IMG/VR virus record: IMGVR_UViG_3300047457_001195 | Location: 1-59,226 of that record | Direction: 5' to 3' (one strand) | Length of the DNA stretch: 59,226 bases | Source: a virus | Part shown: one piece after another, positions 39,531 to 57,684 of the stretch | Position numbering within the stretch: the first letter of the stretch is position 1 | Layout of the letters: each line of letters opens with the position of its first letter | Notes under the pieces: generated by a model | Databases searched by the model: none | Told to the model about the DNA's origin: nothing | What the model saw: the letters and a program-made list of their open reading frames with translations, nothing else | Translations under genes and position numbers: made by a program

Positions 39531-39554
39531 ACAGCCTCCTTTGTTTATGACAAA

Positions 39555-39573: not shown

Positions 39574-39578
39574 ATTAT

Positions 39579-40488: not shown

Positions 40489-40496
40489 TATTTATT
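40489..40496 (-). promoter_or_regulatory. AATAAATA six bases before a start codon
   Basis: The minus strand reads AATAAATA with its last A six bases from the ATG of the 81-residue gene, the same spacing as at erpA. Late-type transcription would begin at the start codon itself. Confidence 0.4.
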
Positions 40497-41481: not shown

Positions 41482-42036
41482 TCATTTTTTTCCTATTAGC
41501 ATGAATCTTTTGAATTGCCAATTAGGATATACAAACTCTTTTTCGCCTTGAAATACAATTTCCTCTAGGGGAAAGGTCTCTTTAAAATGCTCTAAAGACT
41601 TAAATTTAAACACATGATCATCATGTATCATGTCTGCACCTTGCAATGCTACCCAGGTTCCTTTGGTAATATTATTAAACCATTTTAAACTAGAGAAATG
41701 CTCAGTGCTAGTATTTACAACAAGATCAACCTGCCCATCTAAAAACTCTAAGCTATCACAATCTTCTGTATAGGCTTTAAATTGCCAATCCTGCCAAACC
41801 CAATTTTCATTAATCATATCTGCGATATGTTCGCAGCTAGGATCAACATCAAAACTTTGAATCTGTCCTACTTGAATTTTTCCTCGTGATAGTAGTAAAA
41901 AAGCAAATAGTCCATACCAGCCTCCGTAGACCCATATAGTATCAATACCAGCGAAAGCTTCTTCTAATTGTTCACAAAGCCAAAGTTTACTACCTATTTG
42001 GCCACTACTAAAGGCATCCTTTAACGGATCGTTCAA
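41482..42036 (-). CDS. Class I SAM methyltransferase-like protein
   Basis: 184 residues. A Rossmann pattern is visible: DTIWVYGGWYGLFAFLLLS in the motif I position (Gly-Gly-x-x-Gly, somewhat degenerate), IQSFDVDPSC with the acidic residue expected to bind the SAM ribose, and DLVVNTSTEHFSS as motif IV. No target-recognition domain. It ends the long minus-strand run that starts beyond 55 kb. The substrate is unknown; given the neighbours a small-molecule or sugar methylation is as likely as nucleic acid. Its start follows the next gene's stop by one base. Confidence 0.68.
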   Translation of the reverse strand: MNDPLKDAFSSGQIGSKLWLCEQLEEAFAGIDTIWVYGGWYGLFAFLLLSRGKIQVGQIQSFDVDPSCEHIADMINENWVWQDWQFKAYTEDCDSLEFLDGQVDLVVNTSTEHFSSLKWFNNITKGTWVALQGADMIHDDHVFKFKSLEHFKETFPLEEIVFQGEKEFVYPNWQFKRFMLIGKK

Positions 42037-42037
42037 T

Positions 42038-42703
42038 TCAAGCAGCCTTATAATGATATATTTGATGGCCCATATCTCTTTCTCCCCAAAGACATGGATA
42101 AGTTGCTATTACTTCAAGAGAGTTAAGTTCCCCCATCTTTCTAAAATCACGGTCCTTAGAAATGTCATGCTCAATTATAAACAAATCAGCATCGTCAGTT
42201 AACATAGGGCGAATATTATTAAAAAAATTCCAATGTGATTTCATTTGGTCGTCTACTAAAATTCTACATGTATTGGTAATTTCTTCTTGAGGTCTACCCG
42301 TCATAGATTCTAAGGTTTCTTGTAGATTAAAACTATGCGGAGGGTTCCCTATTACAAGATCCCATTTATAAGGAATATTAATATCTAGAATAGAATCTGT
42401 TACAAAACTATCTACCTTATCTATTAGACGATTAGAATTTACTGTTTCCTTAACACGTTCTATAGCGGTAGCATATGCATCCATAAAGGTAAAATGATTA
42501 CAAATTTCGAAACCTAGTAATTCAAATCCCATTCTGCCTGCACCTGAACACCATTCTAAACCATGTTCATAATTAGCCTTTCCACTTTCTAAAATTGCAG
42601 TATGGAGTGAAGGAAAAAATAAAGCACCTCCACCATCTAGATGAGGCTGAGTCTTTAGTTTCAAACCAGAAAGTAATAGCTCATTTATAATAGGTTCATC
42701 CAT
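42038..42703 (-). CDS. Methyltransferase with NPP motif
   Basis: 221 residues. Motif I is GLEWCSGAGRMGFELLG and motif IV is DLVIGNPPHSF, the N-P-P-(Y/F/H) type that binds a planar amide or amino group in N-methyltransferases (HemK/PrmC-like or N6-adenine types). About residues 150-215 contain a C-terminal strand set (DADLFIIEHDIS). Which of these substrates is used cannot be told. It overlaps the radical-SAM gene upstream by 8 bases, implying coupled translation. Confidence 0.75.
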   Translation of the reverse strand: MDEPIINELLLSGLKLKTQPHLDGGGALFFPSLHTAILESGKANYEHGLEWCSGAGRMGFELLGFEICNHFTFMDAYATAIERVKETVNSNRLIDKVDSFVTDSILDINIPYKWDLVIGNPPHSFNLQETLESMTGRPQEEITNTCRILVDDQMKSHWNFFNNIRPMLTDDADLFIIEHDISKDRDFRKMGELNSLEVIATYPCLWGERDMGHQIYHYKAA

Positions 42704-44234
42704 TTTTTAATCCTTTAGGTAAGTTTTCTGTATAAAAATCAGCTAATTCTGGAAAGACATCAGCGAAATTAAGATTTCTTCTTTTATCATATTGAAAAAA
42801 GTATCTGCTAAAATTCTCTCTATCAATTTTTAGCGCCTTCTTATCAATATTAGATCTATCTAAAAAGATAGATAAATTTCTTTCCATCTTAGCAATTTCG
42901 AAATCATAAAATCCGCAGAAGTTTTCAGTATTAGCGTGAGATTTCATAAAATTTATAGCATCAACAAAGTATTTTTCAAATTCTATTGGTAAAACTTGAA
43001 TGGCCATCCATCCTGGATTTCTTAAAAGTGGGATATCAAACCAAATACGTTGTCTAGGCGCAATTTCATAGTCCTCATGCTCGTGCCATTGATCTAAAAT
43101 TGGTATGAAACGTTTCCCTTGATTATCTCTAGAATACTTATTCCTCAATCCTAGGATATAAGCAAGGTAATCTTTTATTCTAGGAACACTTAGAGCATTA
43201 AATGTATTAATAAACGTTACGGTAGTATTAATAGTTTCGTTTAGCACGTAATGAATATTGTAATTCATTAATTTAAAATCTAAGCCTGTTCTAATATATT
43301 CAGCATGATCACCTACACTATCGACGCTGATAAACAATGCAAAATTTTTAAGCGCCATATTTACATACCAATTATTTCCAGCAGAGGGGTTAAACCTTTC
43401 TTTATTTTCCCAAATTTGTATTTCCTCAAGCCTTTTTAGCTTTTCTACAAATTTACGCATAAGCTCAGGCTTAGGCGGACATAGATTTGATGTAATGCTT
43501 ACTTCTAACCAACTATTAGGGTTTTCATAAATGTAGTCAAGAACCCTAAAGGTATTAACATCAATTAAAGGCTCACCTCCTGTAATTCTAAATACTTCTA
43601 ACTTTTTATATAAGCTAGGCCACCATTCCCAAAAAGCACGAAGATAAGGATTTTCGTCCTGTTTTACCTTAATAGGCATTAGCTTTTGCTTTTCTAGATA
43701 GATAATATCATTATGAAATGATTCATTTCCTTCTTTATCAATGATCTGAAATGGTCCATGCTCCTTTATTTCTTCTTCCCAAGTTGTGCTAAGATGAGGG
43801 CTGCAATACATACACTTAAAGTTGCAGGCTTGATTAAAATTAACTTCTACATATCTAGGATCAATATTGCCTGTATCTAGAGCATCAATAATATCAGCTC
43901 GTGCATTTTGAGCCCAATATTCTCCAGAACGATAAATCCTATCACTTCTTGATCCAGAATCTTCTATCTTCCAACAATAGCTACAACCTTCGGGTCTTTC
44001 GCCTTTAAGCATAAGGCTACGTTCATGCTTTTTTTGTTTAGTGTTATGCAGTGCGCTAGGATTAGATTTAAGTTCTTTTATATCAATCTTATGTAAAGGC
44101 GGATGATAACAACTATGAGTCATTCCATTAGTTAAGTGCATACTAACTTGTGCCCACTTTGCATAACACATGGTTTTAGAAATAAAAGACAATTGCTTTT
44201 CAGCTCGGTCAGCTGATTGATTATATTCACTCAT
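42696..44234 (-). CDS. Radical-SAM protein with N-terminal twitch domain (A)
   Basis: 512 residues. The radical-SAM cluster motif is Cys137-x3-Cys141-x2-Cys144 (QACNFKCMYCS), followed by RITGGEPL. Before it, residues 20-90 carry Cys23, Cys42, Cys84 and Cys87 (THSCYHPP and GCSYCW), the layout of a twitch/SPASM auxiliary-cluster domain placed N-terminal instead of C-terminal. This fits the NCBI 'twitch domain-containing radical SAM' family, which has many phage members with no known product. It is paralogous to the protein at 52505 (all four N-terminal cysteines are at the same residue numbers). It overlaps the next gene by four bases. Confidence 0.88.
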   Translation of the reverse strand: MSEYNQSADRAEKQLSFISKTMCYAKWAQVSMHLTNGMTHSCYHPPLHKIDIKELKSNPSALHNTKQKKHERSLMLKGERPEGCSYCWKIEDSGSRSDRIYRSGEYWAQNARADIIDALDTGNIDPRYVEVNFNQACNFKCMYCSPHLSTTWEEEIKEHGPFQIIDKEGNESFHNDIIYLEKQKLMPIKVKQDENPYLRAFWEWWPSLYKKLEVFRITGGEPLIDVNTFRVLDYIYENPNSWLEVSITSNLCPPKPELMRKFVEKLKRLEEIQIWENKERFNPSAGNNWYVNMALKNFALFISVDSVGDHAEYIRTGLDFKLMNYNIHYVLNETINTTVTFINTFNALSVPRIKDYLAYILGLRNKYSRDNQGKRFIPILDQWHEHEDYEIAPRQRIWFDIPLLRNPGWMAIQVLPIEFEKYFVDAINFMKSHANTENFCGFYDFEIAKMERNLSIFLDRSNIDKKALKIDRENFSRYFFQYDKRRNLNFADVFPELADFYTENLPKGLKNG

Positions 44235-45364
44235 TTTGCGTCTTTAAAAAGAGAATCAATTTTTCTATCTTTATCAATACTCTTGCCGCATTGATTCCAG
44301 CAAACACCTATGCTCTTAGATTTCCAACTCTTACTGTAAATATCCAATACCTTGCTGTCTAAAATTTCTTTTAGACTATGATGATGTAGACTGTTTTTAT
44401 TTTCCATTTGAGATTGAATTTCTTGAACTTGAATAGCTTCAGGGCTATGAGTTACAAGCATTCTGACACCAACAAAGCAGCACGGTAAAACTCTTCCCAA
44501 GGCATCTATATAAATTTCCACTACTGACCTATCATGATAAGGAACTGGAGCTTTTCTTGAGCTCATACAATCTATACTACCTTCTACCTTTATAGGAATA
44601 AATTTCGGAGCAATATATCTAGGATCAGCAGGAACATACGGCGGATATCCGTTGTTATTAGCATGTTCAATAACATAATCTAATTTAAGATTTTTATCGT
44701 ATGCTGGCATAGCCTGTCCGTCTACTCCAAAAGGATTTTTTAAGATAAAAATCATACCATGTTGATAGGCTAACTCCCTAGCCTTTTCTATCTGGTGAAC
44801 ATTGTGTTTAAATTGAAGGAAATCCCAATGTGCAAGAGCACCAGTTTCTACGTAGGCTAAAAGATTTTCCCAGACCCTACTCCACTTAACATTACGTCTA
44901 TAGATATGATTAGTATCCTCCAATCCATCTATACTAAATGTAATCACACGTTTGGGAATTACACCATTTACTGGTTTTTTTTGAGCAAATAACTCTCCTA
45001 TTTGCCTATATAATGTTTTAGATCGCAGTCCCCCATTTGTATTAACCTGTATGTTTCCTGGACTATGTTCTGCTATATATTCCAAAATTTTGTAGATATC
45101 CTTACAGGCCATAGGATCGCCGTAATCTCCACATAGCAACCAATAGTAAATGTTTGACATTATTTCCTTTGGGAACCATTTAACGAAATCTTCATAGGTT
45201 ATTTCAGTTTGAATAAGCCTTGGATCAGGAATAGGACTATTCATCATAAACCTAGTGCATCCTGGGCAAGCGGCATTACACTTGCTAGAAAGTTCTATGT
45301 GAACTGAAGATATTTTTTCATATCTCCATAATGGGTGTTTAGTGGTTATTGCCAAATGTTCCAT
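44231..45364 (-). CDS. Radical-SAM/SPASM protein (B)
   Basis: 377 residues. Radical-SAM motif Cys29-x3-Cys33-x2-Cys36 (SKCNAACPGCTRFM), then LLCGDYGDP in the GGEP position and TFSIDGL on a later strand. The C-terminus carries an auxiliary-cluster region: Cys266, Cys295-Cys296 (YIDALGRVLPCCF), Cys355 and Cys359 (GVCWNQCGKS), typical of SPASM proteins such as peptide-modifying enzymes. It differs from the other two in domain order. Its substrate is unknown. It overlaps the SGNH gene upstream and rSAM-A downstream, so all are made together. Confidence 0.87.
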   Translation of the reverse strand: MEHLAITTKHPLWRYEKISSVHIELSSKCNAACPGCTRFMMNSPIPDPRLIQTEITYEDFVKWFPKEIMSNIYYWLLCGDYGDPMACKDIYKILEYIAEHSPGNIQVNTNGGLRSKTLYRQIGELFAQKKPVNGVIPKRVITFSIDGLEDTNHIYRRNVKWSRVWENLLAYVETGALAHWDFLQFKHNVHQIEKARELAYQHGMIFILKNPFGVDGQAMPAYDKNLKLDYVIEHANNNGYPPYVPADPRYIAPKFIPIKVEGSIDCMSSRKAPVPYHDRSVVEIYIDALGRVLPCCFVGVRMLVTHSPEAIQVQEIQSQMENKNSLHHHSLKEILDSKVLDIYSKSWKSKSIGVCWNQCGKSIDKDRKIDSLFKDAK

Positions 45365-46401
45365 GTTTTTCTACAATAATCAGTTTTCTCTAGATGATGA
45401 TAAATTTCTTGAGCTAACAATCGATGTGCTTTGGAGCTAGGGTGTCCACAATTCATGATCCACTTTGTTTCACTTCCCCCATGTTCTCCACATATAGAAA
45501 GGTGGTTTAATGATGGATCATAGTTGTCTTCTTGACTTAATGCGAGAGTAAAAAAATTAGATTTCCCTTGAGGAGCAATAAATGAATTCCAATCAACAGA
45601 ATCAAATAAAAACTGATGATATCTATCAGGTTGAGAATCTTCTCGAATGTCTAGGATTTGTTTTTTTTGATCTCTGATTATCCTAGTTTTAGACATTTTG
45701 TAGAAATAGTCTGGGTTATAGTAATCATTGAATGCCGGGAAAGTGATTAATTTTGCATTATGATTTTTTACCCATGACGTCAATAGTTGATAATTTGTAA
45801 GGAAATTTAATGCTTCCCATTTCTCCGAATAAAGCTCTTGTGAAAATCCCTCTTGTAATTTATTCCAAGAGATAGTTTCATGGTTAGCATAAGAAGGCCA
45901 TGCAGTTCGGTAATAGTTATCGTGACTATTTTCATCGATTAGAATATCTAATCGATTGGCAGAAGTAGGGCAAAATACTACTATTATTTCATCAGCCTTT
46001 TTCCATTCAACAGGAACCAGAAATAGCTTCATAATACTAGATTTAAGGCCAGCTCCTGGGCTTCCGAAATTAATAGGTGTATATTCTTTTTTTAGGAAAT
46101 CTCTACATAAGATTGATGTGAAAGAATTCTCAACAAACATCTTGTCGAATTCTATATAGGAATAATCGTGATTGCTCATAATAAGTCCTGGAAATTTTTC
46201 TAATATTTTTTTACGTTCTATTACACTATAATTATTAAGAGTCCATGTTGCACCGTTAGAATACACAGGAGGGGAGCTGTCTAAGAGTTCTTGACTAAAC
46301 GCAGCTGATCCAAAAACAAAAGAACATCCTATAGATACAATAATTTTATTTGTTTGATCAAGACCTTGATTAATCGCTTTTACGCTTTTAGAATAGTGCA
46401 T
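45346..46401 (-). CDS. SGNH/GDSL-like hydrolase or acyltransferase (A)
   Basis: 351 residues. Block I is IIVSIGCSFVFGS (Ser of G-x-S-F), block II is NFGSPGAG, and the closing block is GHPSSKAHRLLAQEIYHHL with the likely catalytic His. Asn of block III is not clear. These enzymes add or remove acyl groups, often on sugars. It is a tandem paralogue of the next gene (shared EYTPINFG and C-terminal HP-x3-(A/G)H). It overlaps radical-SAM B by 19 bases and shares one base with its paralogue's end. Confidence 0.72.
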   Translation of the reverse strand: MHYSKSVKAINQGLDQTNKIIVSIGCSFVFGSAAFSQELLDSSPPVYSNGATWTLNNYSVIERKKILEKFPGLIMSNHDYSYIEFDKMFVENSFTSILCRDFLKKEYTPINFGSPGAGLKSSIMKLFLVPVEWKKADEIIVVFCPTSANRLDILIDENSHDNYYRTAWPSYANHETISWNKLQEGFSQELYSEKWEALNFLTNYQLLTSWVKNHNAKLITFPAFNDYYNPDYFYKMSKTRIIRDQKKQILDIREDSQPDRYHQFLFDSVDWNSFIAPQGKSNFFTLALSQEDNYDPSLNHLSICGEHGGSETKWIMNCGHPSSKAHRLLAQEIYHHLEKTDYCRKTWNIWQ

Positions 46402-47411
46402 TAGTTCCCCCGCAAATACTCAAAAACTAATCTAGCAAACAAATCATGACCTTTTTGTCCGGGATGACTACAAGGTGTCATCCAACCGAGCGGACTTCGC
46501 TTATTTTGAAATTGGAAATAAAACTCTTCTTTATCAGATAGATCAGGTTCATTCATCATACACATATGAGCCATTGTAAAATGTCCGTTGGGGTCAAACA
46601 TGAGATGCCACGGCCAGTGTTCTGCTAGAGATTCGGCATCATTGTCATGAATATAATGTGATTCATCTTTATACAACCAATTAGATTCTCTGCTAATAGT
46701 TTTTCTAAGAATAGATTTCATAATTGATTTTTCAAATCTTTTGTCAAAGGCAGGAGTAATTATTAGTTTGGCATTTTTATTTTGGCACCAACTTTCTAGT
46801 TCTTTAACAGCCAAATAAGATTCAATCATACCTGCTTTATCAGAAAAAACAGCTTCTGAATAAGCTCCCCAAAGTTTACCCATGGCAGAAGTTTCGTGCC
46901 CTTTGGGCAGACTAGGCCAGACAGTTTTAAACCAATTACCTGGTGTAGTAGCGGTGTCTTCAACGAAGTCAAATCTTTCTAGTGACGTTGGCATAAAAAT
47001 AATGATAAGTTCTTTTATCAAGTGCCAATTAATCTGAGGGTGCAGGTATAGCTGCTTTACCCTACCTCTATTAGATCCGCCTGCTTTTCCAAAGTTTATG
47101 GGAGTATATTCTCCCATAAAATATTTGTTCGCTAGAACATCTACAAAGGCGTTTCTAGCGCACATTTGAAATATCATAATTTGACTATTTTCAAGAATAA
47201 GGTCAGGATATTCCTTTACTATTCTTGCCTTGGTATTATCATCTGCTAGAATCTTTAAAGGATATCCAGGAGCTTCAAAGTGCCAATTATATTTTTCATA
47301 AAGATCATCATCTATAGCACCCTGCCCTTCCACAAATGAATCTCCTAGAGCAATTATTGCTTTATTTGTTTTAGCTAGACTATTGTTAATTTTCTGTATG
47401 TCTACTGGCAT
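46401..47411 (-). CDS. SGNH/GDSL-like hydrolase or acyltransferase (B)
   Basis: 336 residues. Block I IIALGDSFVEGQGA is canonical GDSF; block II NFGKAGGSNRG; C-terminal CSHPGQKGHDLFARLVFEYL supplies the His. Shared EYTPINFG and a similar length show duplication with the gene at 45346. GGGGGA precedes the start of that next gene. Likely an esterase or O-acyltransferase acting on a glycan (inference). It overlaps the gene upstream by 26 bases. Confidence 0.74.
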   Translation of the reverse strand: MPVDIQKINNSLAKTNKAIIALGDSFVEGQGAIDDDLYEKYNWHFEAPGYPLKILADDNTKARIVKEYPDLILENSQIMIFQMCARNAFVDVLANKYFMGEYTPINFGKAGGSNRGRVKQLYLHPQINWHLIKELIIIFMPTSLERFDFVEDTATTPGNWFKTVWPSLPKGHETSAMGKLWGAYSEAVFSDKAGMIESYLAVKELESWCQNKNAKLIITPAFDKRFEKSIMKSILRKTISRESNWLYKDESHYIHDNDAESLAEHWPWHLMFDPNGHFTMAHMCMMNEPDLSDKEEFYFQFQNKRSPLGWMTPCSHPGQKGHDLFARLVFEYLRGN

Positions 47412-48780
47412 TTTTATTAATATGATTAATCATTATTTCGTATAGATCAAAAACATAGGTTTCTGCTCTATTTTGAAAATGTCTAAAATTATACTTTAAT
47501 ATACCTTCTATATCGTAATACCATTTAAATTTTTCTTCTATACTAAATGATTGAATGCGACGCATTTCTTTAACAATATATTCCATCCTTTCAAATGTAG
47601 GTAGTTCATCGTAACCTTCATTGATATAAGGATAGAAAGTTTTATATCCTAATTTCCGTAAATTTTTTAGAACCCCCTTGCTACCGAGGATAATAAACGG
47701 ATGCTGACATGCTATAGGTTTAAATGTTTTTTCACTGATAAAACAGGTTCCTTCTGCATCACTACAGCTTGCTTCACTAACAACGCTGCACCATGTCTTC
47801 AAAGTTGTTATATCACTGATCTTAGAGATATATGCCCCACCATCACCACTTTCAAAATTTGATCGACCGTAGTTCTCGGGATTTTCAAAAGGCATTAAGG
47901 GCAATGTTAAATTTAATCTTTCAGCATCTTCGGGAGAAATAGATTTACCCTCATTATAGCTTTCTTGCCATGTGAATTTATTCATTGAAACTAGATTATC
48001 TCGAATTAAATCGGCATCGTGAAGATACTTATAAAACCATAAGCGATGAGGCCTAGTTCTTTTTTGTAAAATATTAAAAGTCTGTATAGCAGGAGGGTTA
48101 AACTTTTTAAAGGCCATTTGATAATCAAAATCTGGCAATTTTCTCATTACAATTTTGCCAGGGTGGGGTAATCCAAATTCGGTATACCCTCTTGATACTT
48201 CATATATAGCAAACTCAAAATGAGGCCATCCTACGACCAACATATCTGGTGGAACATTATGGGCTTCTGCCCATTGTCTGTATCTCTCTTCTGCTTCAAT
48301 GTCACCGGTAAAATACATAATCTGGCTAGGAGGAATACCGTAATCTTGACACGATGTATGGAACCAATCAAATAACCACGGAGCATGATAACCTTCATGT
48401 GTCTGATCTATGAGGAAAAAACCTTGCTTATTCCTTAGTAGCTCTAACATACTAGGATTTATAAAAGAAAACAAATTTTTATGATTAGGATTTTCTGGAT
48501 TTCCGCCATTACCTTTGCTGTCTGGTCCTGACCATAACCAAGGAGCGGGACCTACACTTATTGGCATGATAAATTTAAAATTGCCATAAGTAGGAGCATA
48601 CTTAATATCAACAATTTGTGGATAAGGTTTATTTAAAACTGGATTAGATTTAACCTGTCTTAGCATTGTAGAAGCTATAGGGCTTACTCCTACTCTAGGA
48701 TTTAAACCATTTTGCTCTCGGCAAGTGAGTAAATTTAATCCATCATATCCGACTAGTTTCTCAAAATAAAACCTTAACAT
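47386..48780 (-). CDS. Putative glycosyltransferase (A), phage family
   Basis: 464 residues. About residues 345-400 contain FISEKTFKPIACQHPFIILG, then LRKLGYKTFYPYINEGYDEL. The motif E-K-T-F-(K)-x-(I)-x(4)-P-F-(I)-(I)-x(7)-L-R-x-L-G-(F/Y)-K-T-F resembles the acceptor/donor region of GT10/GT47-like glycosyltransferases and is common in uncharacterised proteins of aquatic phages. No membrane segment. It shares the signature with the protein at 48780. Enzyme activity is inferred from this motif and from surrounding sugar-type genes. Confidence 0.6.
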   Translation of the reverse strand: MLRFYFEKLVGYDGLNLLTCREQNGLNPRVGVSPIASTMLRQVKSNPVLNKPYPQIVDIKYAPTYGNFKFIMPISVGPAPWLWSGPDSKGNGGNPENPNHKNLFSFINPSMLELLRNKQGFFLIDQTHEGYHAPWLFDWFHTSCQDYGIPPSQIMYFTGDIEAEERYRQWAEAHNVPPDMLVVGWPHFEFAIYEVSRGYTEFGLPHPGKIVMRKLPDFDYQMAFKKFNPPAIQTFNILQKRTRPHRLWFYKYLHDADLIRDNLVSMNKFTWQESYNEGKSISPEDAERLNLTLPLMPFENPENYGRSNFESGDGGAYISKISDITTLKTWCSVVSEASCSDAEGTCFISEKTFKPIACQHPFIILGSKGVLKNLRKLGYKTFYPYINEGYDELPTFERMEYIVKEMRRIQSFSIEEKFKWYYDIEGILKYNFRHFQNRAETYVFDLYEIMINHINKNASRHTEN

Positions 48781-49967
48781 TAGATTAGTCCCGGAGGAGG
48801 TTGATTTTGGGACAAAAAAGTATGATTTACGATATTTTTTAAAAATCCAAAATCTTCTGACATTTCAATTTTTGCCATTCGCTGCTTCATTATTTCAAGA
48901 TTATAATCTGCGATGGGTTGTAATTTATCAAGCAAATAAGCATACTCATTATCTGGCAAATTCCTTAATCTATCTAACTCACTAGCAACGGCTTCGAACC
49001 TGGTTTCTAAATTATCTATTTTGTCATATGATTCATCTATCCAGGGGTGAAAAGTTTTGAATCCTAGCTGTCTAAGTGCCTCTAAAAAGTTTTGAGATGA
49101 AACAATAATAAAGGGTCTGGAGCAAGAAATTGCCTTAAATGTTTTTTCAGTAGGAAAAGCCACTGAAAACCTATTAGGTTCTATGTGTTTCCAGTGCGGC
49201 CAAAACCAGTGCGGATCACATTGAGATTCTACAGTAACATTGATGCCAGAGGTCTGTATGAGATTATAAGTCACATCATTAAACTTCTGTTGAATATTAA
49301 CTTCTTTAAAAGTATAAGGTATTCCTGAGATCCAATCTAAAATCTTTTCAGTCATATTAAACCCCATTTCTTCTGCATCTTTAATTAATTGCTCATGGGG
49401 AAAAATTTTCATACCATAGGGATCAAGATTATTATAGGTATAATTAATATCTTTTAAAAGATCCTTATCTAGTAACCTTAAAAAAAAGTTTAATCTCCAT
49501 CGTTGGTAATTTCTACTCAACAGGCTGAAACGATTAATTATAGGTCGATTTGGCCTAGGATGGCAAATGCCCATCAATAAAGGCAAATGGCATACATGAT
49601 ATCCTATAAATCCAAAATCATTCATACTTTGGTTAAACCAATTTACCCAATTTTCATCTCCTAGGACAAAATAACATTGTCCAGGAGGAACCTCATGTTC
49701 TTTTAAAACGCTAACCCAAGCATCGATATCTGAATAATTAAAAAATTCGTCTGGATGAAAAATTAAAAACTTGCTAGTAGGATCGCTCCTTAGATGCTGC
49801 CAATGCCTCTCTTCTAAAAAATCTTTAATATGGAGTCCTCGAACAACAAAATCATGGCAGTCATACCAATATACATCATTTGGTCGGCAAGCCGAGTTCT
49901 TTAAATTTGCAAAGTATTGTCCTTGCAAATATCCGTGAGAGACATTAGTCTTTGTATAGATTTTCAT
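48780..49967 (-). CDS. Putative glycosyltransferase (B), phage family
   Basis: 395 residues. FPTEKTFKAISCSRPFIIVS followed by LRQLGFKTFHPWIDESYDKI is the same signature as in the 464-residue neighbour, so the two are paralogues with different N-terminal halves. The start of the upstream oxygenase overlaps its start by four bases, and its own stop shares a base with the next ATG. A role in building a surface sugar or modifying virion proteins is plausible; no proof of activity from sequence alone. Confidence 0.6.
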   Translation of the reverse strand: MKIYTKTNVSHGYLQGQYFANLKNSACRPNDVYWYDCHDFVVRGLHIKDFLEERHWQHLRSDPTSKFLIFHPDEFFNYSDIDAWVSVLKEHEVPPGQCYFVLGDENWVNWFNQSMNDFGFIGYHVCHLPLLMGICHPRPNRPIINRFSLLSRNYQRWRLNFFLRLLDKDLLKDINYTYNNLDPYGMKIFPHEQLIKDAEEMGFNMTEKILDWISGIPYTFKEVNIQQKFNDVTYNLIQTSGINVTVESQCDPHWFWPHWKHIEPNRFSVAFPTEKTFKAISCSRPFIIVSSQNFLEALRQLGFKTFHPWIDESYDKIDNLETRFEAVASELDRLRNLPDNEYAYLLDKLQPIADYNLEIMKQRMAKIEMSEDFGFLKNIVNHTFLSQNQPPPGLI

Positions 49968-50701
49968 GCTTGATCTCGTTTATCATAAGCTATTTTTTTG
50001 ATAGGATCATACCAATATTGACTTCTATGAGGGGGATCATCTTCCTTAAAAGTAGAATTGCTGGTATAGAAAAATAACCTAAATGTAGTCCTAGGTTTAT
50101 CTCTAGGACACATTAAGGGCTTTGTGTGTCCGTGCCATCCTAATTTGTCGTATTGCCAAATAATGCATCTATTGAAAAGACAATCTACATGAGTGACAAC
50201 ATTTTCTCTTTCTTTATCATAAAAATCTAAACCGCCGTTCCAACTAGGATCCCAATCAGGTGTTAGATAAATGATCATGCTGGCTGCTCTATGTAATTTT
50301 AGTGTGTCATTCCAATTAAAATCAGTATGTATTTTTAAAGTGTCTCCGGCGAATGATTTACTATATCCGGCACCGATAAGGTAAGGATCAGGAATCAATC
50401 CTTTAATACCTGTCATTTTTTCTAATCCAGCTAACGAACTTGCACTATGTAAATAGTTAGTGACTTCAAATGCCAGAGGTGTCTGATTGAGTTTGTTTAG
50501 CTCGATCATGTGACTACCATTTCTAGTAAATGTTCTCCATGTAGATTCATTAATAGATTGCAATTCTTGAAACATGTTTGATGCAACATCTACTGGAAGA
50601 AAATCATCAATTACAGTCATAGGGATAGGGCTAGCGCCAGCAAAATCTCTATCACCTTGATATATATCCTGTGTGAAAATATCAGTAAGATGTTTCATCA
50701 A
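49964..50701 (-). CDS. Prolyl-4-hydroxylase-like 2OG/Fe(II) oxygenase
   Basis: 245 residues. The double-stranded beta-helix oxygenase motifs are visible: His125-x-Asp127 (KIHTDFNW), the distal His190 or His192 (GWHGHTKPL) and Arg208 (RTTFRLFFY) for 2-oxoglutarate. MTVIDDFLP at the N-terminus is typical of the P4Hc group. It may hydroxylate Pro or Lys in a protein or a small acceptor. This window encodes about 1900 residues of Gly-Pro-rich collagen-like sequence, so proline hydroxylation of the fibre is an attractive but untested idea. It overlaps both neighbours by four bases. Confidence 0.85.
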   Translation of the reverse strand: MMKHLTDIFTQDIYQGDRDFAGASPIPMTVIDDFLPVDVASNMFQELQSINESTWRTFTRNGSHMIELNKLNQTPLAFEVTNYLHSASSLAGLEKMTGIKGLIPDPYLIGAGYSKSFAGDTLKIHTDFNWNDTLKLHRAASMIIYLTPDWDPSWNGGLDFYDKERENVVTHVDCLFNRCIIWQYDKLGWHGHTKPLMCPRDKPRTTFRLFFYTSNSTFKEDDPPHRSQYWYDPIKKIAYDKRDQA

Positions 50702-51474
50702 AACCCAAAGTGACCTTTGTTTATTACAGGATCATAATCATGAACAATGTGTTTAATAATATCCATTTGCTTTCCATAATCCTGAGTTTTTGTATCGAGT
50801 GCGTCAGCTAGTTTGTAATGTAGATCAATCAAGGACTTTTCTCTTTCAAAATCTAAATTGAACCCGAACCTATTTCTAATTCTTTCGTTGAAAAAATGTA
50901 GGTGACTGTTAATATCCCCGTGTCCATCATGGCAGCGTCCTTCAAAATTTGTATTAACTTCAATAGGAAAATAATCTAAATCAGGCAGAGCATTAAGGAA
51001 TAGATCCTGCATTTCTCGATTAAAGTCTCCTGCATCTTTGTCAAAGTCAGGCCCTCTGGGATACATATAGAAAGTAAACTGGTAATCCATATTAAACATC
51101 TTGTTAGCAGACAAAATTGCCACAGAGTTTTTCATAATATCATTATTCCAACTCCACCATCTATCGCAAAAGGAATCTCCGTATAATGGATTATGAAATA
51201 CACATCCTCCTCCAGACCACGAATCTGTATAACGATCTTCTCTTGTCCAAGTGGACCATTGAGTAATTACCAAGTCACGATCTGTTATTTTATATTTGAC
51301 ATCAGCTTCGACCATTTTGTGCATGATAGCAACATTACCTATGCCCATCTGAGCAAAATTGTAAATTGGCTTGTCAGTTGAATAACGACACATATCTGCC
51401 CATGTGGGCCATCTAAAATTAGTAAATGAACAGCCAAATATAAAAATTCGATCAACATCATTTAAAGTTTTCAT
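50698..51474 (-). CDS. SGNH-like protein (C)
   Basis: 258 residues. The N-terminus reads RIFIFGCSFTNFRWPTWADM, a G-C-S-F-T block I typical of an SGNH variant common in phage genomes; later NFAQMGIGNVAIMHK may be block II and HDGHGDINSHLHFF lies near the catalytic His position. It is distinct in sequence from the tandem pair at 45346-47411. The SD sequence AAGGAT precedes the ATG. Function inferred as sugar acyl hydrolysis or transfer; a loss of enzymatic activity cannot be excluded. Confidence 0.65.
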   Translation of the reverse strand: MKTLNDVDRIFIFGCSFTNFRWPTWADMCRYSTDKPIYNFAQMGIGNVAIMHKMVEADVKYKITDRDLVITQWSTWTREDRYTDSWSGGGCVFHNPLYGDSFCDRWWSWNNDIMKNSVAILSANKMFNMDYQFTFYMYPRGPDFDKDAGDFNREMQDLFLNALPDLDYFPIEVNTNFEGRCHDGHGDINSHLHFFNERIRNRFGFNLDFEREKSLIDLHYKLADALDTKTQDYGKQMDIIKHIVHDYDPVINKGHFGF

Positions 51475-51497
51475 TGTTAGATCCTTAATAAATTAAT

Positions 51498-52502
51498 CTA
51501 CATTAGTCTTTCAGACCAAGTTTTCGGTGTATACTGATTGGTAATTTCTATAGGGTAGTCATACTGAAATGTCCTTGGACCCTGTTGCTTAATATAGGCA
51601 ATAGTAGATTTTAATCCATCAATGAGAGTGGTTTTAGTTTCATATCCTAAAATTTGTCTGGCCTTATCTGCTGAACAAGTAGCATATCTAATTTCTCTAG
51701 GACGCTCATCCATATATGTAGGTTCTCCTTGAAATCCAGTTTCTTGAATTATCAATTTTGCCAAGTCGTTTATGGTAACAAATTCTTCATCAGGTCCTAT
51801 ATTAAAGATATCGTTTTTAATTGTAGGATCTAAAGCTAACTTTTCCAAACATGATATACAATCTTGAACAAAACTAAAACATCTCATTTGATTGCCATCT
51901 CCATAGATAATAGGAGGTTTACCCTGTAGAACACGATTAATCATTATACTCATTACGTTTCGAAATGGGTCATCAAATCTCTGCCTAGGACCAACAATAT
52001 TATGAGGTACGGCCACTATCCATTCCATATTATTCATAGGAGCCAACATCTTTAAAACATCTTCTGCTGCCACCTTGGCCACAGCATATGGATCAACAGG
52101 ACTTGGGGATTGTGTTTCTTTAAATGGGTAATCTTGATTACCATAACGTGCCATGCTAGAACAAAAAACAAAACGTTTTACCTTATTTTGAATAGCAGCC
52201 GAAATAGTTGCTACACTAGCACCAAAGATGTTTTTGGTGATAAAGTGCGGACTAAAGATACTTAGACCTTCATGAGCTGTAGCAGCAGCATGAATAACTA
52301 CATCAGATCCTCGCATGGCATAGACCATTCTATCTATGTCATTACAATCAATCTGATAAAATTTGACAGACTGATCTACATTGATCTTATAACCACCTAG
52401 AAGGTTATCATTACCTGTTACTTCGTGACCTAACTCTAACATTCGATCTGCTAGGTGACTACCCAAAAATCCTGCAACTCCTGTGATAAAAATTTTAGCC
52501 AT
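51498..52502 (-). CDS. NAD-dependent sugar epimerase/dehydratase (extended SDR)
   Basis: 334 residues. The Rossmann motif G-x-x-G-x-x-G is at residues 8-14 (FITGVAGFLGSHLADRMLEL), the catalytic Tyr139-x3-Lys143 in DPYAVAKVAAE, and Ser115-Ser116 in FVFCSSMARYG. The C-terminal half (RPREIRYATCSADKARQILG) matches nucleotide-sugar epimerases of the GalE/WbpP type. It should interconvert a nucleotide-sugar in the cytoplasm, feeding the glycosyltransferases nearby. Intact. No clear SD sequence; a GATAAATA at 52516-52523 lies in the end of the gene upstream. Confidence 0.9.
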   Translation of the reverse strand: MAKIFITGVAGFLGSHLADRMLELGHEVTGNDNLLGGYKINVDQSVKFYQIDCNDIDRMVYAMRGSDVVIHAAATAHEGLSIFSPHFITKNIFGASVATISAAIQNKVKRFVFCSSMARYGNQDYPFKETQSPSPVDPYAVAKVAAEDVLKMLAPMNNMEWIVAVPHNIVGPRQRFDDPFRNVMSIMINRVLQGKPPIIYGDGNQMRCFSFVQDCISCLEKLALDPTIKNDIFNIGPDEEFVTINDLAKLIIQETGFQGEPTYMDERPREIRYATCSADKARQILGYETKTTLIDGLKSTIAYIKQQGPRTFQYDYPIEITNQYTPKTWSERLM

Positions 52503-52504
52503 AA

Positions 52505-53905
52505 TTATATCTTGTTATTTATCGCCCTACATAATTCCCAGAAATTTTGCATCTCAGGAAATGTTTCTAGAAAGTTCTGACGGCGTCTTTGATCATATTG
52601 ACTAAACCAATTATAAAAATCTTTTCTTCCCTGTAGAACTTTAGGAGTGTTATAATTTACTGTGGCAAAATAATCTCTCACTCGTCTAAATCTCTCATAT
52701 TCTAGATCACTGAATTTGGTTAGGTCTTTGTCATCTCTATGCTGATCCATAAATGATAGGATTTTATCAAAGTATGGCAAGTATTCATCTTTGGGCAGAA
52801 TATGCATGTCGTATTGTAGAGGTTCCTTAAGATATGGAGTGTCAAATCTTATTTTACGCTTATTGAGAGAGCGTATGTCCTGTGTGTCAATGATGCCATC
52901 ATATGTCTTTCTCCACTCGAGTAGTTTTTCTAAAAAGTCTACGAACGATGTTACACTGAGAATATTAAAAGTACACATTATTGCTAACGGTCTTCCAGTA
53001 GTTCTGATAAAGGTATCTATATTTTTTTCCCAGGTTTCGATCTTTAGACCTGTTCTCATATATTCAGCACGCTTGCCCCAACTTTCCATGCTAGAAAATA
53101 CTTTTATATCTTTAACTTTCTTACCATCAATTAGGCTTTTTACTTTTTGACTAAATTTATCAACTATTCTAGGACTCAATCCCATATTGCTATTGAAGTT
53201 CAATTCCAGATTAGGTTTAGGATCACGTTCCAGAGAATCCATTAATTTCCAAGTTGTCTTATGCATCAATGGTTCACCGCCTGTTACTCTAAGAATGTTC
53301 AGAGTCTTACTCATTTCAGGCCACCACTTCCACCAAGCGGAAATATAAGGATTATTTTCTTCTTCGTATAACTTAAACCATCCGATATCATTGGCATGAT
53401 TGACTACATTCTTATAGGGACCAAACTGCTTGATCTCGCTATAATAACTACTCGAATGTTTGGGATGGCAGTATCCGCATTTAAAATTACATTCGCTGCT
53501 GAAGCTGATTTCTATATATTCTGGATTAACATCTTGGTCCCAGGGATTATTTTTTATAGCATCAAAGTATTCAGGTTTAAAAATAGCACCTGTCTTAATC
53601 ATCCTATCACTGATATGAGTCTTGCTCAATGCTTCCACATTCCAACAATATTGGCATCCAGGTGGTTTAGCTCCCACTAGCATCATTGCACGCTCTTTTT
53701 TCTTATGTAGAGTATTGTGTAGAGCACTAGGATTATCTGCCAATTCATTTAATGGTATAGAATGCGGCGGTGGATGATAACAACTGTGTGTTTCACCTAG
53801 ATGCATGTAAAGAGTCACATGATGCCACTTGGCCATGCAAAACGTTTCACTAACTTCGTTGGTTATGTTAATAACACGATTAATTCTTTTTATTTCTTCG
53901 CTCAT
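52505..53905 (-). CDS. Radical-SAM protein with N-terminal twitch domain (C)
   Basis: 466 residues. Radical-SAM motif Cys139-x3-Cys143-x2-Cys146 (SECNFKCGYCH), with RVTGGEPL later. The N-terminal twitch-type cysteines Cys23, Cys42, Cys84 and Cys87 (FCMAKW, SCYHPP, GCQYCW) are at exactly the positions of its paralogue at 42696. The two also share SALHN and a C-terminal FSQYD-(Q/K)-RR-(R)-(Q/N)-NF. It should bind at least two Fe-S clusters. It overlaps the glycosyltransferase gene upstream by 26 bases. The reaction is unknown. Confidence 0.88.
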   Translation of the reverse strand: MSEEIKRINRVINITNEVSETFCMAKWHHVTLYMHLGETHSCYHPPPHSIPLNELADNPSALHNTLHKKKERAMMLVGAKPPGCQYCWNVEALSKTHISDRMIKTGAIFKPEYFDAIKNNPWDQDVNPEYIEISFSSECNFKCGYCHPKHSSSYYSEIKQFGPYKNVVNHANDIGWFKLYEEENNPYISAWWKWWPEMSKTLNILRVTGGEPLMHKTTWKLMDSLERDPKPNLELNFNSNMGLSPRIVDKFSQKVKSLIDGKKVKDIKVFSSMESWGKRAEYMRTGLKIETWEKNIDTFIRTTGRPLAIMCTFNILSVTSFVDFLEKLLEWRKTYDGIIDTQDIRSLNKRKIRFDTPYLKEPLQYDMHILPKDEYLPYFDKILSFMDQHRDDKDLTKFSDLEYERFRRVRDYFATVNYNTPKVLQGRKDFYNWFSQYDQRRRQNFLETFPEMQNFWELCRAINNKI

Positions 53906-55685
53906 TGAAAACTTTTTTCAGTAGGTCATAGTCGTTGATATCTAGATTTTTATCTGCATAAGCCTGTGCATCTCTATAACCTAATAGAGCAAAATCAGCA
54001 TAATCAACGTGTGCAAATTTAGTATTCCAGATAGATAAATTTTGTTTAGATTGTTTATCTGTTTTTCTTAATAGCTTATAACATTCTCTAAATGCTGTTC
54101 GCCAAGTTGAAAATTCATCAGTGTTAAATCTATTTTCATTACTGATCTTATCTATAACTTTAATTCTAGTATTAAGTTCAGTGGTCATGTCTAGATAATC
54201 AATTTGCTTATCAAAAATACTTTTTGGAAATAACTTAACACCGCTGTGTCCATAACGTAGACCATTTACCGGATTGATAGAACTCCAAATATGAGTGCAA
54301 TTCCTATCAAACAGGTTAGGGGTAAAATTAAAGTTCCAGTCATCTACCAACCATGCATCGCCGTCGACTACCCAAAACATATCAGATTCACTTTGTTCTG
54401 CTGCGGTCTTATGTGCTTGGAAGATTCCTTTAATACCCATAATACGTTTAGCATTAGGTGCAAACTTCTGAACCCTAGACCAGTTTTCTTCAGCATTTGT
54501 CTCGTTATAGCTGATAAAGAACACATCAAAATGATCGCTGAGATTAGCAGGAAGATAACTATCCATGTAAAATTCCTTGCTATCCGATCTCATTGACTTT
54601 TTAACTGCCCAAACTCGGTTATAGTCTGTCTGCTTGGGATCTAACTCCCAAACAATTTTTTTATCCCAATCTTTTAACAATGGTCTATAATTAAACGCCT
54701 GTTCATAGTCTACATCAATAAAGTCAATATCAGGATTAACTTCTATATGCTCTACAGGCCTAGCATAACCCATGACTTTAACGCCTTCTGGTTCGTCAGT
54801 CCAGAGAACCTTGATTGCCCATAGGTCTTCACTGCCCTCCTCAAGATATTCCCTGTCTAAGAGATAAACATTTGCATAGCGCAGGTCATCCCAGGATGTT
54901 TGGCTGAGGTCGAGATCATAATCTACGATGCCTACACTGGAGTTATAGATTATTTCAGGATCTGGGGTGACTTGCCCGAGCCAATTCCATCCTTTGGTTT
55001 TTCTATATCTTGGTGTTACTTTAATGACCCATAACTTTTCATCTAGGTCCTTGGTATGGCTAGGATTCAAATAGTATGCATTATCATAGGCCAAATCCCA
55101 ATAGGCCGGACAAGCTTCTTCTAGTCTATAACCCAAATAAGGCAACTTTGGATTGGTTTCGACTAAGACTTGAGGAGTAAGGTAACCCATGTGCTTGGTT
55201 CCTTGACTTTTCCTACCCATTGGCTCACAGGTCATTACCCAAATCTCATCGTCAGTGGGATTAAACACAGGATCCATATACCAAATCAAGGTATAATCTT
55301 TGTCCCATGGTTCAGGCTCAAAGTTACCCAGTGGACTATCAAAAAATGTCATTGCAATATCAATGTCTGGATTCTTACGCCAACTATATTGAAGCTTGGG
55401 AATACGGATATCTATATAACCATTTTCTGGTTGCCAATTTTTTGGAAACAACTTGGCTAACCACTGATCTTGATAATGCCATACTATACACTGATCCTCA
55501 CAGTCCGGCACGTGATCAACAAGATGAGGCCAATTAGGATTTTCTAAATAGGGGTTCAGCACTAAACAGATGTTGAACTTGCTGGCTAATCCAGCTAACT
55601 TGACATCATATTCAATAGGGTCACCCTGGTATTGAATAGCCTCTACTTCTTCTTGTGTTAGTTTTGGAAATTTATCTAGGAACAT
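53880..55685 (-). CDS. Glycosyltransferase-type protein with four N-terminal repeats
   Basis: 601 residues. The C-terminal half (from about 380) looks like a GT-A glycosyltransferase: FDVFFISYNETNAEENW, then SDMFWVVDGDAWLVDDW with the metal-binding D-G-D at 441-443 and YGHSGVKLFP. The first 380 residues hold four repeats of about 65 residues of the form W-D-x-x-Y-x-x-x-(Y/W)-x-(L/M)-(D/N)-P/R ... (V/L)-W-(V/A)-(I/M)-K ... (K)-x-(M/L)-G-(Y) (starting near 127, 196, 265 and 340), not recognised as a named domain. No SD sequence; a hairpin (55690-55709) ends four bases before the ATG. Confidence 0.75.
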   Translation of the reverse strand: MFLDKFPKLTQEEVEAIQYQGDPIEYDVKLAGLASKFNICLVLNPYLENPNWPHLVDHVPDCEDQCIVWHYQDQWLAKLFPKNWQPENGYIDIRIPKLQYSWRKNPDIDIAMTFFDSPLGNFEPEPWDKDYTLIWYMDPVFNPTDDEIWVMTCEPMGRKSQGTKHMGYLTPQVLVETNPKLPYLGYRLEEACPAYWDLAYDNAYYLNPSHTKDLDEKLWVIKVTPRYRKTKGWNWLGQVTPDPEIIYNSSVGIVDYDLDLSQTSWDDLRYANVYLLDREYLEEGSEDLWAIKVLWTDEPEGVKVMGYARPVEHIEVNPDIDFIDVDYEQAFNYRPLLKDWDKKIVWELDPKQTDYNRVWAVKKSMRSDSKEFYMDSYLPANLSDHFDVFFISYNETNAEENWSRVQKFAPNAKRIMGIKGIFQAHKTAAEQSESDMFWVVDGDAWLVDDWNFNFTPNLFDRNCTHIWSSINPVNGLRYGHSGVKLFPKSIFDKQIDYLDMTTELNTRIKVIDKISNENRFNTDEFSTWRTAFRECYKLLRKTDKQSKQNLSIWNTKFAHVDYADFALLGYRDAQAYADKNLDINDYDLLKKVFNERRNKKN

Positions 55686-55719: not shown

Positions 55720-57684
55720 TTAACGTGGCAGATTCACTAAACTGGTTACTACACTATTGCTTTTGTCAAATCCTCTAAACATTTGAGTATTTGCTTCGTA
55801 GACATGAATGCGTCCATTCATGGGATTGTGATATTGACAAATATAGTATAGAGTAGAAGTTGACAGTGTATAGGGAACTGTGAATGATACATAGCCTGTG
55901 TCAGTTCCGTTATTGGACACTCCATTCACACCGTTAGTGACTCCCCCTATTGGTAGGTCTTTGATCCAAAAAGGATGCCCTGGAGAATTTACATTGAAAT
56001 TATAGGTAATGCCTTTGATTAGGGTAAGAGTTGGGTTAGTGCTTCCGTCAATAAGATAGGCGCTGGCTCCTGAGTTGGTCACTGTATAATCAGCGGTAAC
56101 AGAAATTATATTTCCTAAATCATCCCTAGGACCAGGATCTTTAAAATTTTGAGGAGCATTAAACTTGTCTTTAGGGCTATAGTAGTAAAAAGATCTAGTT
56201 AGTCGATCCAATGTTTGATTGACCGTGCTATCAGTGCTGGTTTCTCTTAGATCATTGAAATTAACGAACACGCTGCCATCGCTTGATTCTTCAATTATAA
56301 ACATAGACCCAGTGCTGGCATAATGGCCAAAATAATAATCATAGTTCCTTTGATCTGGTTCTTGTGTCTTTACTCTGTAGTCACCACTGAGATAGGTAGT
56401 GGCTGTGCCTTGCAAAGGAATTTGATAGACTGTTTGCCAAAAGGCAAATGGTATTTCTTGTCTGCCTTCCATAGGACTGAGATTGTCCACTGTAAACCAC
56501 TCAGCCAGTTCTTCCCTATAGGGGTCACTTTGATCAGCTCCGCTGCCTACACCTATGGTCAATGTTCTTTGTCCTGCTACAAAATCAACTCTCAAGCCCA
56601 CTATAGCATCGGGCTCTAATAACTTGGTCATGTAGGTCGCTGTGTTATAATTCAATGTGTAGTCTGGTTGATAGTTGGCAAAATTAGTGGCTGTGGTGGT
56701 CTGATATTGTGGATCAGTGGGACTTACTATCAAGGTGCTGGCATATAGCCCACTGCCCAAACGATCTCTCCATGGGTCAAACCTTACTGTGACTCGATTG
56801 GCACTGATAGCATCTACCCTCCATGCTGATGAACCTGACATACTGGCCGCAAACTCAATAACAGTTTCCGGGCTTTCAACTTCATTGACAAAGGCTATGA
56901 GCTGATAGGTAGCAGTAAAATTAAATCCAGGTAGGCTGGTATTGCCCACAAACCCTGCAGGTGTTAGGTTGTAATACCTATTACCACGCCCTACCACAGT
57001 AAGATCAACTCGGGTAAATGCTCCAGCTTCATTGGTATAAAAACCCATGTATTCATTAAACTGTCCATAATCTGTGCTGAGAAACTTCAAACCAAAACTG
57101 GCAGATTGACCCGAAGTCAATGACCACGGTGGACTAGAATAATTGGCCCCTGTATAGCTAGGCACTGCCTGCGTCATAAGATTGCTGAATACAGGCTCTG
57201 CAACTTCCAATGTGCCATTGCCCAAATTTGTTATGGTAACACGTCTGCTGGGGCTTTGACCCTCAGGAGTGGCATAGAACAATCTGTTGATAGGGCTAGT
57301 TGATGTATCTGTTATCTGCACACTGGCTGTGCCCGCAACTGTGGTGCTTTCAGGTTCACCATCTAACCAAGTGTATAGGGTTGCTGTTAGAGTTTCAATG
57401 CCCTCAGTGAATTGATCAGCGGTTATGGCTGTAAGAGCTAGAAACTGACTGGGCCACGGATAGGCCAACGTAGGGTGAAACAGCACAGCTTCGCTGAGAG
57501 GGTCAAGATCACCCAGGGCCTCTGTGACATCTTCTCCTGTGATATTGGTTCCAGATAATACCCCCTTGACCCATCTACCTGTGGTGCCATAATCAAAGGT
57601 TCCCACTGCTGTGATAGTCCAAGTTAGATATTCACCCTCGTTAACTGGATTTGGGCTAGGGGTTACTGTAAATGTCAAAGGCAT
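55720..57684 (-). CDS. Virion-type protein with Calx-beta-like and copper-type cupredoxin domains
   Basis: 654 residues. Residues 1-130 (FTVTPSPNPVNEGEYLTWTI) look like a Calx-beta or related Ig-like domain. About 150-235 resembles an ASPM/Hydin-type Ig domain (VTITNLGNGTLEVAEPVFSN). Residues 535-632 form a cupredoxin-like domain retaining a full type-1 copper ligand set: His570 (PGHPFWI), Cys616, His619 and Met622 (YYICQYHNPMNG). A paralogous domain at 33337 has lost it. AATAAATA ends seven bases before the ATG and there is no SD sequence. Probably an exposed virion protein; copper binding is predicted, its purpose unknown. Confidence 0.78.
   Translation of the reverse strand: MPLTFTVTPSPNPVNEGEYLTWTITAVGTFDYGTTGRWVKGVLSGTNITGEDVTEALGDLDPLSEAVLFHPTLAYPWPSQFLALTAITADQFTEGIETLTATLYTWLDGEPESTTVAGTASVQITDTSTSPINRLFYATPEGQSPSRRVTITNLGNGTLEVAEPVFSNLMTQAVPSYTGANYSSPPWSLTSGQSASFGLKFLSTDYGQFNEYMGFYTNEAGAFTRVDLTVVGRGNRYYNLTPAGFVGNTSLPGFNFTATYQLIAFVNEVESPETVIEFAASMSGSSAWRVDAISANRVTVRFDPWRDRLGSGLYASTLIVSPTDPQYQTTTATNFANYQPDYTLNYNTATYMTKLLEPDAIVGLRVDFVAGQRTLTIGVGSGADQSDPYREELAEWFTVDNLSPMEGRQEIPFAFWQTVYQIPLQGTATTYLSGDYRVKTQEPDQRNYDYYFGHYASTGSMFIIEESSDGSVFVNFNDLRETSTDSTVNQTLDRLTRSFYYYSPKDKFNAPQNFKDPGPRDDLGNIISVTADYTVTNSGASAYLIDGSTNPTLTLIKGITYNFNVNSPGHPFWIKDLPIGGVTNGVNGVSNNGTDTGYVSFTVPYTLSTSTLYYICQYHNPMNGRIHVYEANTQMFRGFDKSNSVVTSLVNLPR

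Follow-up and report, generated by a model that had tools for sequence, protein, structure and literature searches.

Hypervariable islands in the structural region are known from pelagimyophages and cyanomyophages. In the accessible text of the pelagimyophage study, such a 'host recognition cluster' (HRC) brings together tail fibres, a large number of glycosyltransferase and sugar genes and radical S-adenosylmethionine (radical-SAM) cassettes that vary among closely related phages, is defined by VrlC and gp14, and has no fixed bookends named (PMC7029224). In the chlorovirus PBCV-1, the capsid is glycosylated in the cytoplasm by virus glycosyltransferases, which produce a conserved core glycan with virus-specific additions; one of them has a second activity, methylation of the terminal sugar (PMC7826918). 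Here we analyze the IMG/VR virus record IMGVR_UViG_3300047457_001195, a stretch of 59,226 bases (the whole of it hereafter the window), in which 13 minus-strand open reading frames (ORFs) fill positions 41482-55685, overlapping or abutting, with a largest internal gap of 23 bases. An earlier note on this DNA had taken these thirteen genes without internal gaps for a candidate undescribed modification system; the observation was confirmed and the interpretation is partly supported, 'undescribed' not being supported as it stood, given that published pelagimyophage genomes have hypervariable islands of glycosyltransferase genes and radical-SAM cassettes next to the tail fibres (PMC7029224). Judged by its site in the structural region, its exchangeable content and its complement of glycosyltransferases and radical-SAM enzymes, the window island is of the broad HRC kind, and PBCV-1 is its closest functional parallel, although that virus is eukaryotic and the likeness is one of mode of action. 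What sets window-type islands apart from the HRC is that a glycosyltransferase of 601 amino acids (aa; GT601), a twitch radical-SAM enzyme and a 184-aa protein (MT184) enclose the cargo, beside an endolysin, in almost all intact copies. Neither VrlC nor gp14 turned up among the window gene assignments, which included no search aimed at either.

Reading from GT601, the window carries three radical-SAM genes (rSAM3 directly after GT601, rSAM2 and rSAM1 near the other end), a nucleotide-sugar epimerase (EPI), three SGNH-like genes (SGNH1 to SGNH3), a 2-oxoglutarate (2OG)-Fe(II) oxygenase, two glycosyltransferase-like (GT-like) genes (GTL1 and GTL2) and a methyltransferase (MTS221) before MT184. 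When compared with the window, record IMGVR_UViG_3300021963_007890 (G001) proved to be colinear (39% identity for the virion protein upstream of GT601, 46% for GT601, 56% for MT184, 80% for the endolysin and 92% for DNA ligase). Between GT601 and MT184, however, G001 holds seven radical-SAM genes that score with the NCBIfam model N_Twi_rSAM (NF033640; curated cut-off 170 bits) and lacks every one of the epimerase, SGNH, GT-like and oxygenase genes that the window has there. Nine further records with both GT601 and MT184 were mapped, giving eleven loci when G001 and the window are counted. The order GT601, twitch radical-SAM, variable cargo, MT184 and endolysin (directly or at most four genes off) was found in nine of these eleven loci, and in G010 and G011 GT601, radical-SAM and MT184 follow one another in the same order, with no same-strand endolysin adjoining MT184.

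A consistent arrangement was also observed in the wider set of contigs, in which it recurs dozens of times, so that the grouping of the island genes is far beyond chance. Of 33 contigs with MT184 just ahead of the endolysin, 32 have a same-strand GT601 further upstream (distance 1.4-24.1 kb, median 15.6 kb), and the single such contig lacking it has 2.2 kb of sequence left upstream; counted as clusters at 90% MT184 identity, the proportion is 24 of 25. A second lineage has GT601 and MT184 side by side (−28 to +3 bases). Immediately downstream of GT601, 19 of 26 loci have a twitch radical-SAM gene, and the remaining 7 have MT184. Among the 50 MT184 contigs checked for both features, NF033640 exceeded its cut-off in all 43 that bear GT601 and in none of the 7 that do not. 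Thus, by comparison, the frame consists of a virion gene, GT601, at least one twitch radical-SAM, variable cargo, MT184 and an endolysin. No description of the GT601/twitch/MT184 frame was found in the literature, searched largely without subscription papers, which is not proof of novelty; the frame seems to be new.

Inside this frame, the interior almost certainly represents an exchangeable cassette, judging from the sequences compared. The closest backbone relatives (G001, G002 and L143; ligase 88-92% identical) have no window cargo beyond distant twitch paralogues, whereas three phages with a more distant ligase (70-75% identical to that of the window) share blocks of it. L173 keeps six window genes in order (rSAM3 66%, oxygenase 61%, GTL2 39%, GTL1 45%, SGNH2 44% and rSAM1 71% identical); L114 has seven, namely counterparts of these six plus the epimerase (72%), largely in order, the second twitch gene being 40% identical to rSAM1; and L172 has three or four (rSAM1 70%, rSAM2 65%, SGNH2 36% and a distant GTL). 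Because close backbones have no common cargo and distant phages have common blocks, the interior is swapped, with parts travelling together as those of a pathway would. The cargo of other relatives includes a DegT aminotransferase, RmlC, thiamine pyrophosphate-dependent enzymes, cobalamin-type radical-SAM enzymes, a uridine diphosphate (UDP)-sugar dehydrogenase, a C-methyltransferase and a cytidylyltransferase fused to a phosphomannose-isomerase-like cupin; in G008, MT184 is separated from the endolysin by a carbamoyltransferase gene.

The suggestion of a co-inherited, pathway-like set combining sugar activation, transfer and radical chemistry is upheld by the relatives' cargo and by the block in L173 and L114, and the island is probably a glycan pathway. 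The earlier note had named independent acquisition of the genes in relatives as an outcome that would count against it; the middle is indeed exchanged, yet as cassettes inside a fixed frame. The wide variation of cargo between neighbours, and the loci in which one or two radical-SAM genes stand alone (L145, L009), could also be those of an insertion hotspot that gathers unrelated metabolic genes with no joint action, but the exact co-occurrence of GT601 with twitch enzymes, the fusion of the two genes (see below), the co-inherited runs in L173 and L114 and the uniform sugar-chemistry theme make such a loose collection the least probable explanation considered here.

Sugar genes occur in G001 outside the island as well: a second group (L008, at about 109.8-117.0 kb of G001), far from the island in contig coordinates, comprises an aminotransferase (phrog_3139), a phrog_11199 protein and three epimerase-like genes.

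An island of related content lies between the tail-fibre and VrlC genes of Pelagibacter phage Mosig EXVC030M (MT647606). Like the window-type islands, it includes MoaA-like proteins, a sugar aminotransferase, a carbamoyltransferase, an epimerase and a full-length MT184 homologue; unlike the window, it has no GT601 (tblastn), its MT184 homologue is 27-28% identical, and its gene order is different.

The O-antigen (rfb) cluster of E. coli also combines nucleotide-sugar enzymes with glycosyltransferases, but it has a membrane flippase and polymerase, of which the phage islands have none. Among 575 island proteins from 67 loci (349 non-redundant at 80%), no protein reaches three hydrophobic segments, and a single, marginal segment was detected in two; as a control, the same test detects the flippase and polymerase of E. 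coli K-12 rfb. None of the membrane steps of surface polysaccharide synthesis is, therefore, encoded in the islands. A crude test for signal peptides returned the first strands of Rossmann and SGNH domains, some radical-SAM N termini and two contig-edge fragments, all considered false positives.

These results bear on the possibility that the island acts on the surface of the infected cell and alters its O-antigen or capsule glycan, feeding unusual sugars and cytosolic transferases to host export and so blocking superinfection or the loss of progeny to debris. Among the cargo genes, DegT, RmlC and UDP-sugar dehydrogenase are reminiscent of those for O-antigen sugars, and the glycosyltransferases of the pelagimyophage island were read in this way by the authors of that study, in its accessible text (PMC7029224). 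Nevertheless, no flippase, polymerase, initiating transferase or membrane acyltransferase is present among the 349 non-redundant island proteins, the rfb control being positive, and the late motif together with the virion and lysis neighbourhood suggests expression at a time when a change of the surface would be of little use. We consider surface remodelling unlikely, though it is the most credible of the alternatives.

The timing was assessed from promoter-like motifs. TAAATA, a core resembling that of T4 late promoters, lies within 45 nucleotides upstream of 10 of the 52 window genes (1.0 expected), including EPI and the virion protein gene adjoining GT601 (VIR654); across the whole window it is depleted (39 vs 83 expected), and it is ten-fold enriched just upstream of gene starts. 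In MT184-endolysin relatives, ATAAATA was found before 2.2% of plus-strand cargo genes, 34% of island genes on the opposite strand and 17% of genes past the endolysin (random, 0.7%). This distribution is compatible with one long late transcript, and the motifs suggest late expression of the island. Scans for sigma-70 promoters and terminators gave about as many sites as in shuffled sequence.

With late motifs, tail genes as neighbours and no membrane steps, an acceptor on the virion is favoured, and we put the chances of the virion being the target at about even. Modification of nucleic acid has to be weighed here too. Glycosylation of phage DNA is well established and all island enzymes look cytosolic, so that radical-SAM and glycosyltransferase activities might hypermodify phage bases against restriction. 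On the other hand, the cargo makes activated sugars, not modified nucleotides (nucleotide-modification genes elsewhere in the phages were not searched), the island is located among tail and lysis genes, its late-type motifs would be late for replication-coupled modification, and the nearest folds of the GT601 model are glycan and protein transferases; this explanation is very improbable.

GT601 (53880..55685, minus strand) opens the island. In agreement with the repeat-bearing glycosyltransferase proposed from the sequence, its AlphaFold model (predicted local distance difference test score, pLDDT, 88) combines a GT-A fold with four N-terminal repeats of about 70 aa. Foldseek matched the model to GT-A enzymes including RmlT, TarS and WrtF (E about 3e-4, prob 1.0) and, weakly and among many other GT-A enzymes, to a PBCV-1 capsid glycosyltransferase (E 1.5e-3). 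Residues D441 and D443 of the D-x-D motif are invariant in 12 relatives, and the number of repeats in relatives varies from 0 to 7. GT601 has no Pfam match and no family match, and PDB profile searches with the GT601, GTL and MT184 alignments gave no meaningful match; tblastn of GT601, GTL1 and SGNH2 against named phages returned nothing. A 981-aa ORF in L135 (1629-4574) is a natural fusion in which a GT601 with three repeats is joined to a twitch radical-SAM domain; it was also found in L136, L137, L139 and L142; with identical coordinates, the five contigs are probably one phage type assembled several times.

The three radical-SAM genes anticipated in the window were all found, two of them above the NF033640 cut-off and the third more distant, with a weak SPASM match. 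The twitch enzyme rSAM3 (52505..53905, minus strand; 301.2 bits) is part of the conserved frame, and the twitch enzyme rSAM1 (42696..44234, minus strand; 295.1 bits, CX3CX2C) belongs to the cargo; the two are 33% identical. The cargo enzyme rSAM2 (44231..45364, minus strand; CX3CX2C), with a SPASM-like C terminus (PF04055 E = 1e-4, SPASM E = 0.02), reaches 59.5 bits with NF033640 and is, thus, not a member. Orthologues of rSAM1 are 70-71% identical in L172 and L173, and that of rSAM2 is 65% identical in L172. Comparison of rSAM3 with named phages by tblastn gave weak, partial matches alone. In the phylum of the sole bacterial MT184 match, the only one sampled, the twitch family was present in 1 of 296 genomes.

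SPASM/twitch radical-SAM enzymes frequently act on peptides (PMC11002830), and the fusion in L135 may point to a common protein acceptor of GT601 and its twitch partner. The radical-SAM enzymes could, accordingly, make a ribosomal peptide natural product or modify the backbone of a virion protein (D-residues, crosslinks), with glycosylation as a side branch. We regard this as improbable: the gap-free window block leaves no room for a precursor peptide gene, and no maturase family of ribosomally synthesized and post-translationally modified peptides scored above its cut-off. The lack of room for a small precursor gene likewise renders a peptide or glycopeptide product less likely.

At the other end of the island, MT184 (41482..42036, minus strand; TTG start) has orthologues 57-65% identical in relatives. 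Of the two methyltransferases claimed for the block, MTS221 stands and MT184 is weakly supported: Pfam Methyltransf_25 matches one of ten MT184 orthologues (E = 0.035), and the alignment to the 'putative methyltransferase' of Mosig runs end to end (hhalign prob 97.4). Membership of MT184 in the MTS family was rejected, hhalign finding the two unrelated, and Pfam matches to MMACHC and rhamnosidase (E >= 0.002) were taken as noise. A profile scan recovered MT184 in at least 344 virus stretches, of which 80 loci were kept out of 344, and in one bacterial genome contig (34% identity). Homologues in L138, L155, L157, L170, L181, L183 and L184 lie in other phage contexts, on contigs with neither GT601 nor a twitch radical-SAM; a solo role of MT184 in contigs without GT601 is possible.

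All remaining cargo genes of the window are likewise on the minus strand. Apart from the radical-SAM enzymes, the epimerase, the oxygenase and the MTS protein, none of the window island proteins gave a significant match to a Pfam or PHROG family. The epimerase named in the earlier note, EPI (51498..52502), is an NAD-dependent nucleotide-sugar epimerase/dehydratase (PF01370 E = 9e-45; phrog_540, nucleotide-sugar epimerase), 72% identical in L114, with ATAAATA upstream; the presumed prolyl 4-hydroxylase-like oxygenase (49964..50701; TTG start) matches 2OG-FeII_Oxy_3 (PF13640 E = 3e-12) and is 61-65% identical in L173 and L114. MTS221 (42038..42703) is a class I methyltransferase of the MTS family (PF05175 E = 6e-7), with relatives only in L105, L154, L163 and L164.

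The SGNH-like assignment of SGNH1 (45346..46401), its paralogue SGNH2 (46401..47411; 44% identical in L114 and L173) and the short SGNH3 (50698..51474) holds in part. The Gly, Ser, Arg and His columns are invariant across 15 sequences, as are the G-x-S and His columns of SGNH3 in the A7 alignment, so that the characteristic Ser and His are kept; Pfam GDSL models, however, matched one of the 15 members (E about 0.003) and none of the three in the window. SGNH1 and SGNH2 are 28% identical over the full length. The two GT-like genes, GTL1 (47386..48780; 464 aa) and GTL2 (48780..49967), were taken for paralogues; they share a C-terminal EKTFK domain (38% identity over 96 aa, the last ~96 residues) and are alike nowhere else. 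Neither has a sequence-family match. The modest AlphaFold model of GTL1 (pLDDT 64) retrieves trehalose-phosphate synthase and UDP-GlcNAc 2-epimerase with Foldseek (prob up to 0.99, best E 2e-3), and GTL1 is a probable GT-B glycosyltransferase on this model. GTL1 is 45% identical in L114 and L173, and GTL2 about 40%.

As noted from the sequence, the island is flanked by structural and lysis genes: a Hydrolase_2 endolysin on one side and, on the other, a protein with the tail-fibre-connector domain of phrog_677. The endolysin (Cell wall hydrolase; 40833..41390, minus strand; PF07486 E = 8e-25) is the downstream flank and adjoins a 110-aa protein with three hydrophobic segments (40492..40824, minus strand), a holin candidate. 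The upstream flank, VIR654 (55720..57684, minus strand; ATAAATA just upstream), is a tail-fibre-like virion protein (phrog_677, baseplate wedge tail-fibre connector domain) and a candidate glycan acceptor. Its counterpart lies directly upstream of GT601 in G001, G002, G005-G007, G011, L135 and L145; a scan with VIR654 as a single protein gave no confirmed relative.

In G001 (L003:3-779), the gene before the VIR654 counterpart has an apparent Hint/intein-like stretch, CFTGPTLVRMADGSRRAIRDIKIGDRVWN, as judged by eye, and the window gene at 57900-59210 stops where this stretch would start. Tail-fibre genes occupy positions 3-35256 of the window. Within this range lie a gene for a 2484-aa collagen-like repeat protein (18381-25835; 1179 aa in G001), which has long open antisense frames and a GC content of about 0.55 vs 0.39 in its surroundings, and three large proteins (1271-8286) that match 'regulator of chromosome condensation' PHROGs (RCC1-like repeats).

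A group of iron-sulfur (Fe-S) assembly genes lies beside the island (37740-39902): by sequence reading, two A-type carriers (37740-38057, minus strand, and 39579-39902, plus strand) and an IscU-like scaffold (38670-39050, minus strand). T4-like environmental viral genomes similarly encode IscU and A-type carriers together with up to 12 radical-SAM genes, and no glycan island or GT601/MT184 frame is described in the accessible text of that report (PMC5332604). The Fe-S genes of the window are kept in G001 at 75-88% identity, and their possible role is to supply the radical-SAM enzymes. IscU was detected in all 6 endolysin loci with MT184 and in none of the 22 without it, a difference confounded by kinship; within the MT184/island clade, no link between IscU and the number of radical-SAM genes was found. 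A second 2OG-Fe(II) oxygenase (38054-38677; phrog_81, PF13759) is located inside the Fe-S group, with no similar gene in the G001 stretches compared.

Taken as a whole, the reading that we favour, a late glycan pathway that is entirely cytosolic, has conserved ends and a swappable middle and decorates the virion, has about an even chance of being right. Under this reading, the cargo would make or modify nucleotide sugars, through the epimerase of the window and the aminotransferases, isomerases and dehydrogenases of its relatives. GT601 would act on an acceptor in the cytosol, most probably a tail or fibre protein (VIR654 is an example), and attach or extend the conserved part of the glycan there; the repeats of GT601 may help to dock that acceptor. 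The glycan would then be extended and tailored by the GT-B-like enzymes, 2OG oxygenase, radical-SAM and SGNH enzymes and methyl transfer, whereby the twitch enzymes might oxidize, epimerize or deoxygenate carbons of the sugar (or of the acceptor) and MT184 would cap the product. The swappable middle would set the structure of the glycan, and cassette swapping would let related phages alter their surface chemistry fast.

Several points weigh against this scheme. So far, neither an acceptor nor a sugar nor a modified virion has been observed. The contigs are related, so that the locus counts given above are not independent. Twitch radical-SAM enzymes of this kind have no established function, the methyltransferase nature of MT184 is weakly supported by its sequence, and the VIR654 counterpart is not adjacent to GT601 in G003, G004 and G008. 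Furthermore, the glycosyltransferases of O-antigen synthesis are cytosolic as well, so that an island without membrane proteins might still modify a host glycan through host export.

Tail-region islands of sugar and radical-SAM genes are known in large aquatic phages, their purpose being a guess; the frame gives these islands a definable boundary, a testable core and a handle by which they can be recognized in metagenomes. More tentatively, and with a probability short of even, the islands may constitute a widespread, phage-specific, modular virion-glycosylation system, in which GT601, its repeats variable in number, initiates a glycan on a tail protein, radical-SAM enzymes, in some cases fused to GT601, act on the carbons of the growing glycan, MT184 caps it and phages swap the middle to change their coat chemistry; if true, this would be for bacteriophages what capsid glycosylation is for chloroviruses, with radical chemistry added. 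Should the product be a virion glycan, cassette exchange would be a means by which phages diversify the chemistry of their coats, which would bear on host range and on the uncharacterised enzymology of radical-SAM proteins acting on sugars or proteins.

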